DNA from: Mycolicibacterium sp.
GTDB taxonomy: Bacteria > Actinomycetota > Actinomycetes > Mycobacteriales > Mycobacteriaceae
Reading direction: 5' to 3'
Assembly: GCA_020637165.1 (NCBI GenBank)
Contig: JACJWN010000010.1
Location: 124,001 to 188,000, forward strand
Length of the DNA stretch: 64,000 nt
Part shown: in pieces, positions 6,286 through 11,808 of the stretch
Numbering within the stretch: position 1 is the first letter of the stretch
Layout of the letters: each line of letters opens with the position of its first letter
Notes under the pieces: model-generated
The model's database searches: none
What the model saw: the letters and a program-made list of their open reading frames with translations, nothing else
Told to the model about the DNA's origin: nothing
Program-made: the position numbers and the translations under genes

Positions 6286-6528
6286 TCAGCGGTGCTGGTC
6301 GATATAGCCGGTCAGATCCTCGATCGTGCGCAGGAAGGCGTACTGCGATTCGGGGATGTCGACCTCGAAGCGCTTGTGCAGCCGGACCAGGAAGTTCAGC
6401 CAGTCCATCGAGTCCAGGTCCACCTGATCGCGCAGCAGTTCGGTGTCGCTGAGGTCGCCCTCCTCGATCTCCGGGGCGATCGCGAGCAGTTCGGCCACCA
6501 CACCCGACCGGATCTCGTCTTTGCTCAT
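6286..6528 (-). CDS. Acyl carrier protein
   Basis: An 80-aa stand-alone acyl carrier protein. The phosphopantetheine attachment site is Ser40 in VDLDSMDWLNFL, the DSM/DSL context. The protein is acidic with the usual four-helix pattern. It is the last gene of the minus-strand operon after the E2 gene, 13 bp downstream of it. ACPs are usually found with fatty-acid or polyketide genes; here the neighbours are an acyl-CoA synthetase and 2-oxoacid dehydrogenase subunits. That suggests an acyl group made by the dehydrogenase or the synthetase may be carried on this ACP (inference). It is not the housekeeping AcpM, which is longer and sits with kasA/kasB. Confidence 0.93.
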   Translation of the reverse strand: MSKDEIRSGVVAELLAIAPEIEEGDLSDTELLRDQVDLDSMDWLNFLVRLHKRFEVDIPESQYAFLRTIEDLTGYIDQHR

Positions 6529-6541
6529 CTGATGTTGCCTC

Positions 6542-7765
6542 CTACAACTCCTGCGGCCGCTGCAGCAGCCGGTCGATCTCGGCCAGGAACAGCGCGCCCC
6601 GGGCCCCGTCGCTGGCCCGGTGGTCGGCGGCCAGGCTGGACTGCACCGTGGTGGCCACCCGGATGCCGCCGTCGACCACGACCACCCGCTGGGCGGGCCG
6701 ACCGAAGCCCACGATGGCGACCTGTTCGGGGTAGATCACCCCGAACACCGCGTCCACGCCCTTCTCGCCCAGGTTGGTCACCGTGATCGTCGGGTCCGAC
6801 ATCTCCGAACTGCGTAGTGACCCTGCCCGGGCGCGGGCCACCAGATCGGTCAGATCGGCCATCAGCTCCGCCAGCGGCTTCTCCGAGACGTCGTGGATGG
6901 CCGGGGCCACCAGGCCGCCGCCGCGAAGCGAGATCGCCACCCCGACATGCTGTCCGGCCGCGGGCTGGAAACCGTCATCGCGCCAGAACCCGTTGAACTC
7001 GGGGAACTTTCGCGCGGCCAGCGCCACCGCCTTGAGTTGCAGCACCGCCGGAAGCAGCCGTTCGGTGATCGGCCGCCCGGCGTTCTGCTCGGTCAGCCAG
7101 GCCAGCGCGGGATCAAGGATGATCTCGTTGGCCAGGTAGTAGTGCGGGATCTCCCGCTTGGAGCGGCTCATCGCCGCGGCGATCGAGGCGCGCATGGCCG
7201 CGCCGCGCTCGCGGGCTTTCTCCGCCGCGGACTTCGGCGCCGCGGTCGCCGGCCGCGGGGGAGTGGGTGGCGGTGCCGGCTTCTCGTGGTGGGCGGTGGC
7301 CGCGGCATGCTCGACATCGCGCAGGGTGATCGCACCCTGCGGTCCGGTCCCGGTCAGCCCCTTGAGGTCCACTCCCAGGGTGACCGCGGTTCGGCGGGCG
7401 ACCGGTGACACCCACAGCCGGTGCCCGACGGGTGCGGACGGCGCGGGCCGTGCAGGCGCCGGAGACGTTTCGGCGGGGGCGGGCGCCGCGGCCGGCTCAG
7501 GGCGGGCGCTCGGCGCGCCCGGCGACTCCCCGGGTTCGAGCAGCGTGGCCAGGGGGGTGCCGACGGCGACGGTCTGCCCGACCGGCACCAGCAACTCCTG
7601 CACGACCCCGTCGTGCCAGCACTCGATTTCCACTGCGGCCTTGGTGGTTTCGACGACCGCGACGATCTGGCCGCGGGTGACGGCGTCGCCGGGTTTGACC
7701 CGCCACTCGTCGAGGGTGCCCTCGTCCATGTCCGCGCCCAGGGTGGGCATCACGAAGTCGATCAT
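6542..7765 (-). CDS. 2-oxoacid dehydrogenase E2 (dihydrolipoyl acyltransferase)
   Basis: A 407-aa E2 core. It carries one N-terminal lipoyl domain (residues 1-78) with lipoyl-Lys42 in ETTKAAVE, an Ala/Pro linker, a peripheral subunit-binding domain at about 117-155 ([16 protein letters not shown]), a second Ala/Pro linker, and the acyltransferase domain with the HRASDG motif at about 382-387 (the HxxxDG catalytic signature). It moves the acyl group from lipoamide to CoA or possibly to the adjacent ACP. The ATG at 7765 overlaps the E1beta stop (ATGA); longer upstream readings are out of character. No E3 gene is in the operon, so a shared lipoamide dehydrogenase is assumed. Substrate (pyruvate, acetoin or branched) is unresolved. 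Confidence 0.94.
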
Positions 7766-9719: not shown

Positions 9720-11554
9720 CACTTCCCGCCCGTCTCAACGGTGCTCGTCTCCACGGTGGAGGTGTCGCCCTCGGGTAGGCCCAGTTCGCGGGCCTTGAGC
9801 AGCCGCCGCATGATCTTGCCGCTGCGGGTGTGCGGCAGGGCGTCGACGAAGTCGATCTCCTTGGGCGCCACCGCCGCTCCGAGGTGCTTGCGGGCATGCC
9901 CCATCAGGTCGCGGCGCAGATCGTCGTCGGCGGTGTAGCCGGATTTGAGCGTGACGAACGCCTTGACCACCGCGCCGTAGGTCGGGTCCGGTTTGCCGAT
10001 CACGGCCGCCTCGGCCACCGCTGGGTGATCGGTCAGCACGTTCTCCACCTCGAAGGGCCCGATCAGGTGACCGGATGCCTTGATGACGTCGTCGGCGCGG
10101 CCGACGAACCACAGGTAGCCGTCGGCGTCGCGTTTGACCAGGTCCCCGGACAGGTACAGCTGCCCGCCCGGATCGGTGCGGAAACACTTGCGGTAGCGCT
10201 CGGCCTGGTTGAGATAGCCGCGGAACATCGACGGCCACCCCACCCGCAGGGCCAGTTCACCCTCGACGCCGGGCTCGTCGATCACCGTGACCGGGCCGTC
10301 GGGGTCGTCGGCGTCGCGGTGTTCGACCACGACCACGTCCACACCCGGCAGCGGACGGCCCATCGAGCCGGGTTTGATGTCGAATGCCGGGGTGTTGGCC
10401 ACCATGATCCCGCCGGTCTCGGTCTGCCACCAGTTGTCGTGGATCGGCAGGCCCAGCACCCGTTTGCCCCACCAGACCGCCTCGGCGTTGAGCGGCTCGC
10501 CGACGCTGGCGATGAACCGCAGATGCGGGAATCGGTATCCGGCCGCCAGTTCCGGTCCGGCCTTGATCAGCATCCGGATCGCCGTCGGGGCGGTGTACCA
10601 GACGGTGACGGCCTCGTCCTGCAGGATCCGATACCAGCGCTGGGCGTCGAACTCCGCCTCGTCGATGATCGAGGTGACCCCGTGCAGCAGCGGCGCGATG
10701 ATCCCGTAGGAGGTTCCGGTGACCCAGCCGGGATCGGCGGTGCACCAGTAGATGTCGTCGGGGTGAAGGTCCAGGGCGAACAACCCGGTGATGTAGTGCA
10801 TGGCGACCGCGCCGTGGACGTGCTGCGCGCCCTTGGGGGTGCCGGTGGTGCCGGAGGTGAAGTGCAGCAGCGATGGGTCCTCGGCGGTGGTCGGTTCGAT
10901 CGGGGCGTCGTCGTCGGCCTGTTCCATCAGGGCATGGAAGTTGTGGGTGCCGTCGATGTCCTGGCCGCCGACGATCAGGACGTGTTTGACCGACGGAAGC
11001 TGATCGCGGATCTTGGCGATCTTGCGCTTGTAGATCGCCGCGGTGGTCACCAGCACGTCGGCCGCTCCGATGTTGACCCGGGTGGCGATCGGCTCGGGCC
11101 CGAATGCGGAGAACAGCGGCGAGACCACGCTGCCGTTGCGCAGCGCCCCCAGCATGCTGACGTAGAGCTCCGGAACCCGGCCCATGATCACGAAAACCTT
11201 GTCGCCCTTGCCGATTCCCAGTCCGCGCAGCACGTTGGTGAACCGCCGGGTCAGCCGGCCCAGTTCGGCGTAGCTGACATCGCGTGTGCTCAGCGCGGCT
11301 GGCCCCTCGGGGTCGGGCGGGGTGTCGGCGATGAACCGCAGCGCGGTCTTCCCGGAATCGGGTCCCTGTGCGTGCCGGTCGACAGCGGCGTAGGCGATGT
11401 TGCAGCCGGGCCCCGTTTCACCGGACGCCATTCCGGCGCAGAGGTCGGGAACCTGCGACCAGGTGAACCCGGCCCGGGTCGCCTCGTAGTCGTCGAAGTT
11501 CGGCGTGACCTTCAGATCGGCGGAGCCTTTGTGGATGATCGCGTCGTCTTCCAT
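9719..11554 (-). CDS. AMP-forming acetyl/acyl-CoA synthetase
   Basis: A 611-aa ANL-superfamily enzyme that activates a short carboxylate as acyl-AMP then acyl-CoA. Visible motifs: P-loop [10 protein letters not shown], acetyl-CoA-synthetase-like [16 protein letters not shown], the A5 region WWQTETGG, the hinge [22 protein letters not shown], and the C-terminal catalytic Lys in RSGKIMRR. The W in WWQTETGG is the residue that in acetyl-CoA synthetases restricts the pocket to acetate or propionate. Shorter than canonical Acs (about 650 aa), like the AcsA group. It is the second gene of the operon, 11 bp after the 80-aa gene, and overlaps the E1alpha start. Because an ACP closes the operon, transfer to ACP is also conceivable. 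Confidence 0.92.
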
Positions 11555-11565
11555 GAACCGTCCTT

Positions 11566-11808
11566 CTAGCGGCGCGGCGGCTCGAGGACGCCGTCACGCC
11601 GGGCGCGCGGGATGTTGGCCATCACCCGCTCGATCAGCGCGCTGTAGGCGCCGCCGTCGTTGATGATGTCGAGACGTTTCAGCTGCCTCAGGAAGGCGTC
11701 GATGCGCCGTTCCAGCGGCCAGTCCCAGTAATCGCGGCGGGTGAACGGTGAGCAGAGGAACTTCCAGGCGATGCCCTCGATCTCTTCGTGCGCATCACTT
11801 TTGGCCAT
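11566..11808 (-). CDS. Small hypothetical protein, first gene of the ACP-dehydrogenase operon
   Basis: An 80-aa basic, Trp-rich protein ([12 protein letters not shown]) that I do not recognise. It has no signal peptide, membrane segment or metal-binding Cys set; secondary structure looks all-helical, with [15 protein letters not shown] as an amphipathic helix. The ATG at 11808 has a G-rich ribosome site (GGGGGGA, 5 nt upstream). It lies 11 bp before the CoA synthetase, so it is almost certainly co-transcribed with the whole operon. A partner or regulator of the synthetase or dehydrogenase is the simplest guess, without direct support. Confidence 0.75.

Follow-up and report, generated by a model that had tools for sequence, protein, structure and literature searches.

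Positions 11808 to 6286 of the window, the whole 64,000-nucleotide stretch of DNA that was analysed, carry a six-gene operon whose open reading frames all lie on the minus strand. In order of reading, the genes are:

11566 to 11808, minus strand: p80, a protein of 80 amino acids with no family match, predicted to be all-helical
9719 to 11554, minus strand: ACS, an AMP-forming acetate-CoA ligase (PRK04319 over its cut-off)
8739 to 9722, minus strand: E1alpha of the pyruvate type (TIGR03182 over its cut-off), starting at GTG 9722 or ATG 9719
7762 to 8742, minus strand: E1beta, with a GTG start (PRK09212 over its cut-off)
6542 to 7765, minus strand: E2, with one lipoyl domain (Lys42), an E3-binding domain and a CAT domain containing HRASDG, all by Pfam
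6286 to 6528, minus strand: a stand-alone ACP (PF00550 over its cut-off) with the DSM serine Ser40

A sequence-only reading of this DNA had described six co-directional genes with overlaps of 1–4 bp or gaps of 11–13 bp, and the frames and junctions are confirmed here: an 11 bp gap separates p80 from ACS, ACS overlaps E1alpha by 1 bp (ATG start) or 4 bp (GTG start), E1alpha/E1beta and E1beta/E2 each overlap by 4 bp, and 13 bp lie between E2 and ACP. Its gene assignments, including the ACP serine, agree with family models. ACS scores 874 bits against the NCBIfam acetate--CoA ligase model PRK04319 (cut-off 729), which makes it an AcsA equivalog. E1alpha scores 433 against TIGR03182 (cut-off 394) and E1beta 395 against PRK09212 (cut-off 321), so both halves of E1 are those of a pyruvate dehydrogenase. 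In E2, the Pfam lipoyl, E3-binding and CAT domains all exceed their cut-offs, and none of the NCBIfam E2 models reaches its own. The ACP scores 34.1 against the Pfam PP-binding domain (cut-off 20.8), and again no NCBIfam ACP model reaches its cut-off. p80 has no match among Pfam or NCBIfam families; structure prediction gives a four-helix protein (mean pLDDT 89) with no PDB match at E≤0.001. Several copies of the p80 family are present in some mycobacterial genomes.

The E1 of the operon is of the alpha/beta type and not AceE, and the nearest solved chains to E1alpha are mitochondrial pyruvate dehydrogenase. Identity as an acetoin dehydrogenase was rejected, since E1alpha exceeds the pyruvate dehydrogenase cut-off and the acetoin E2 model yields 74.8 against a cut-off of 307. 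The earlier statement that the operon lacks E3 holds; the single lipoamide dehydrogenase of the genome over the TIGR01350 cut-off lies outside it (G000:C2:212030-213412). The operon is a variant of pyruvate dehydrogenase, sharing with E1alpha/E1beta-type complexes both E1 subunits and the domains of E2, but differing in having its own ACP and ACS, no E3 of its own, and putative oxygen-type boxes upstream. Novelty of the biochemistry hinges on acylation of the ACP. The ACS resembles AcsA enzymes, with the acetyl-CoA synthetase 9g79 as its nearest solved chain, whereas generic AcsA stands alone, as the Paenibacillus enzyme does, and the ACS here is tied to E1/E2/ACP.

Retention of the ACP within and beyond the genus

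A first survey covered 61 genomes (the window's own, 36 of the genus and 24 of the order) and found ACS, at E≤1e-150, within the genus alone, in 17 genomes, of which 16 also encode the operon-type ACP. The genus survey of 297 Mycobacterium genomes yielded 107 ACS copies in 106 genomes. With ACS as the starting point, 99 of the 107 copies are followed by the ACP on the same strand, 3.0–4.5 kb downstream. ACS and ACP sit on separate contigs in G235, G001, G261 and G271; the ACS locus is cut by contig ends in G150 and G008, with no ACP elsewhere in either genome; ACS is ~13 kb away from an intact p80-E1alpha-E1beta-E2-ACP block in G101; and an extra lone ACS in G274 is a second copy. Four genomes have the ACP and no ACS at E≤1e-150, namely G291, which is 64% complete, and G109, G167 and G164, in which only parts of the operon are present. 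In G002, p80 survives beside a remnant of E1beta and an open E2, and the ACP search gives no match. Operon copies are decaying in four mycobacterial genomes, with a different part lost in each: L153 (G109), L154 (G167), L155 (G164) and L159 (G002). M. tuberculosis Rv1734c could, we presume, be a remnant of the operon's E2; the literature search returned nothing on this gene.

Outside the genus, a profile built from 13 ACPs detects 515 relatives in the GTDB collection. E2 lies directly upstream of the ACP in all 80 of the best 80 of these 515 loci, and 74 show the order ACS-E1alpha-E1beta-E2-ACP, with ACS partial in some; the other 6 have E2 and ACP alone, near a contig end. This set was chosen by its ACP and is therefore no test of retention. 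Searches from the ACS side reached two further groups. First, 27 of 300 Burkholderiales genomes encode ACS at E≤1e-200; of the 27 loci (26 fetched plus L124), 24 hold the complete operon, 2 run into contig ends, and the last, in G546 (L190, about 11461-14021), consists of ACS-ACP followed by a Pat-like GNAT gene below its cut-off, with no E1 or E2 within 20 kb. Second, across the phylum Actinomycetota 16 of 396 genomes encode ACS at E≤1e-190, 11 of them outside the genus; 7 of these have the ACP, 3 are cut, and 1, L191, has a complete ACS-E1alpha-E1beta-E2 and no ACP, so that the ACP is present in 7 of 8 uncut loci.

The operon is also found on plasmids, with the full gene order in 14 of the 15 loci examined (L057-L061, L064, L202-L210), a set drawn in part from a plasmid ACS search that matched 32 records. 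The hosts span Rhodococcus, Streptomyces (L210, with a weak ACP match of 24%) and alpha-, beta- and gammaproteobacteria: Cupriavidus, Burkholderia, Paraburkholderia, Methylocystis, Sinorhizobium, Sulfitobacter, Leisingera, Azospirillum and Photobacterium. In Sulfitobacter and Leisingera, a single annotated pdhA gene covers both E1 halves. The sequence-only reading held that its interpretation would fall if the ACP were absent from most homologous operons; that absence is refuted, since the ACP is a near-constant operon member in two phyla. Chance clustering was rejected because the ACP-side and ACS-side surveys and the plasmid loci show the same block, and the ACP is unlikely to be a hitchhiker, since it is retained when searching from the ACS side. 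Judged by gene order, the predicted module is one block kept across many soil and water bacteria. Near relatives of the operon ACP also occur in Rhodococcus plasmid stress-gene regions, with Hsp20, ClpB and Usp nearby (L062 9908-10225, L063 8013-8156), and the fetched stretches hold no ACS, E1 or E2 match. A contig of 46,372 bases from a viral collection (L148) carries the operon's E2 and ACP near its end.

Across 137 pairs the median gap between E2 and ACP is 9 bp, with no in-frame fusion among them; an apparent 551-aa fusion frame in L198 was rejected, as its translation shows a frame change. Lipoyl groups start from octanoyl-ACP, and together with the position of the ACP gene after E2 this raises the alternative that newly made E2 is lipoylated from octanoyl groups provided by the ACP. 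That role is very improbable: G546 keeps the ACP with ACS and no E2 within 20 kb, and neither lipA nor lipB is annotated in the annotated plasmid stretches.

Residues were counted over the 131 loci supplied, a redundant set from which cut loci drop out. The ACP serine is kept in 125/125, the ACS lysine and arginine each in 125/125, the E2 lipoyl lysine in 120/120, the CAT histidine in 124/124 and the CAT aspartate in 120/124, so E2 has the lipoyl and catalytic residues of a pyruvate dehydrogenase and the ACP has both its DSx serine and a PP-binding domain. By these alignments, ACS, E1alpha/E1beta, E2 and ACP travel as a conserved operon with catalytic residues intact. The conserved ACS arginine aligns with R584 of S. 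enterica Acs, which we take to be a CoA-binding arginine. The loop with R191 and R194, presumably also CoA residues in the S. enterica enzyme, is absent from the AcsA-type 9g79 too, and its absence from ACS is therefore uninformative. Conversion of ACS to an ACP ligase through loss of CoA residues was considered, and its sequence gives no sign of this.

These residues bear on a second alternative, in which only CoA accepts the acyl group. The operon would then serve at low oxygen as a reserve pyruvate dehydrogenase and a scavenger of acetate, with the ACP acting as a structural or regulatory partner or carrying a group loaded elsewhere. Such an arrangement is a real possibility. The CAT residues of E2 and those of ACS look ordinary, including the invariant CoA-type arginine, and the L191 operon does without an ACP; against this alternative is the near-constant presence of the ACP and of its serine over two phyla.

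Putative promoter boxes and stress-gene neighbours

Upstream of p80 lies one further feature:

11867 to 11880, minus strand: DosR-type box GGGACTTTCGCCCC, lying 72 bp upstream of the start codon of p80 and matching the DosR-type pattern exactly

Because the pattern was set with this sequence in view, the match in the window does not count as independent evidence. The box is exact on the 14-mer pattern, as for a member of the DosR regulon, and matches 14 of 20 positions of the DosR palindrome; when one mismatch is tolerated, matches also arise in 41 of 100 shuffled versions of the window. The whole genome contains three exact matches, including that of the operon, and none to the reversed control. 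One lies 72 bp before fdxA (FdxA_Actino 144.6 bits, cut-off 125), the same distance as in the operon, and in M. tuberculosis fdxA belongs to the DosR regulon (PMC4082495). The third is in L067, around 1501.

Comparison of upstream regions extends the pattern to relatives. Nine of the 80 GTDB loci have no usable upstream sequence; 61 actinobacterial loci and the window make a set of 62, and the 8 loci from proteobacteria and 2 from Rhodococcus were treated separately. A DosR-type box (at least 10 of 12 positions) precedes 55 of the 62 actinobacterial loci and is present in 31 of 35 non-redundant regions, where dinucleotide shuffles lead one to expect 1.45 and the reversed pattern gives 3/35. 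In Burkholderiales, 16 of 26 loci carry an FNR-type box (at least 8 of 10 positions; 0.8 expected, reversed 0/26), and 13 of these 16 boxes sit 52–97 bp before ACS. FNR-type boxes also precede 5 of 8 proteobacterial GTDB loci and, counted without a shuffle control, 6 of 10 proteobacterial plasmid loci. The Rhodococcus operons have neither a clear DosR-type nor a clear FNR-type box upstream. The upstream regions carry putative oxygen-type boxes of two unrelated kinds, and the operon looks to be switched on by oxygen shortage; one operon behind both is a strong pointer to its role.

In other mycobacteria (one representative each), an Acg-family FMN oxidoreductase (NF047509 over its cut-off), Usp, S30AE, PfkB, a PRTase-esterase and a NarL-type regulator lie nearby. 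The resemblance to the DosR dormancy regulon consists in the box distance shared with fdxA and in the Acg, Usp, S30AE and PfkB neighbours; the searched passages of DosR papers do not name the operon. In the window, a globin-reductase-like gene upstream falls below all cut-offs, its relative having globin and reductase domains, and the region downstream is dnaK-grpE-dnaJ as named from its open reading frames. Rhodococcus loci are flanked by Usp, a GAF sensor kinase, Hsp20 and ppsA, and Leisingera by ppsA, 1-PFK, Usp, Hsp20 and a Crp/Fnr gene; in Photobacterium, phosphoenolpyruvate synthase directly follows the operon. On a Sulfitobacter plasmid (L205 2889-6291), the operon is immediately preceded by genes for FabI, a phosphate acyltransferase and an acetate kinase. 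Neither the stress-gene surroundings nor the putative hypoxia-type promoter boxes featured in the first reading. The operon is very probably a low-oxygen acetyl module.

A third alternative has ACS alone, or E2 alone, charging the ACP, with acetyl-ACP passing to lipid or polyester synthesis as a carbon and electron sink. The ACS-ACP pair of G546, lacking E1/E2, and the FabI, phosphate acyltransferase and acetate kinase genes of Sulfitobacter would suit it, but no ketosynthase or other acyl-using gene occurs among the widely shared neighbours (large clusters), and we consider this sink unlikely.

A candidate acetyl carrier

The explanation that we tentatively favour is a low-oxygen acetyl module in which the ACP is the acetyl carrier for E2, ACS or both. 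Falling oxygen would turn the operon on, through DosR in mycobacteria and an FNR/Anr protein in Burkholderiales. E1/E2, with the shared E3 of the cell, would convert pyruvate to acetyl-lipoyl-E2, and E2 would then transfer the acetyl group to the dedicated ACP, onto its phosphopantetheine, either alongside transfer to CoA or in place of it. ACS may use the same ACP, with acetate either loaded onto it or released from it. The ACP would in this way be a carrier shared by the pyruvate and acetate entry points, with flux kept apart from free CoA. Sharing is suggested because the ACP stays with E1/E2 in G101, where ACS has moved, and with ACS in G546, where E1/E2 are absent.

The sequence-only reading had proposed that E2 or the synthetase charges the ACP in place of CoA, and this has fared unevenly. 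In its favour are the constant ACP, its invariant serine and the G546 pair, which fits a synthetase-ACP link; against it is L191, an operon without the ACP. Acylation of the ACP by E2, ACS or both is about an even prospect, and acylation by both enzymes is doubtful. Standing against the acetyl-carrier explanation are the ACP-less L191, the operon-free ACP relatives in L062 and L063, the lack of an E2-ACP fusion, the box-poor Rhodococcus operons and the conserved CoA-type arginine of ACS.

There is precedent for a C2 unit on a small ACP. For NapB/NapC/NapD and DinU/DinT/DinS, it has been proposed that a thiamine-type enzyme makes a C2 unit that ends up on a small stand-alone ACP (PMC7570522), as envisaged here. 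Those systems belong to antibiotic clusters, with a two-part transketolase, a sugar-derived hydroxyethyl unit and a KAS III-like loading protein, whereas the operon here has ACS, and none of its six genes encodes a loading protein of the KAS III kind, in which it departs from the NapB/NapD type.

An extension of the acetyl-carrier explanation, and quite an improbable one, is CoA-sparing fermentation: E1/E2 would oxidise pyruvate to acetyl-ACP, and ACS, running in reverse with AMP and pyrophosphate, would yield acetate and ATP, an acetyl-ACP-based substrate-level phosphorylation for low-oxygen survival common to the phyla. If the acetyl-carrier explanation is true, mycobacteria and many proteobacteria have, as a recurrent part of their response to low oxygen, a pyruvate dehydrogenase with its own ACP, which has escaped notice because its genes look ordinary one by one. 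It would also open to experiment the question of what obligate aerobes do with pyruvate and acetate once respiration stops, and the module may be an overlooked metabolic route for survival without air.

No earlier description of the operon was recognised among the papers and passages searched. A 2011 comparison of dormancy regulons (Gerasimova) may list it. The searched passages of seven papers (PMC10034137, PMC11876180, PMC4974804, PMC2799521, PMC6127331, PMC3759415, PMC9104464) nowhere name an ACP among the genes of a pyruvate dehydrogenase operon. Three expression results could touch on the operon. A putative pyruvate dehydrogenase of M. smegmatis is down under oxygen limitation (PMC2799521), which counts against the low-oxygen role if it is the same operon; msmeg_4710-4712 are up at slow growth (PMC2799521); and MAB_4918c-MAB_4915c, a pyruvate dehydrogenase complex, is induced in artificial sputum (PMC4974804).
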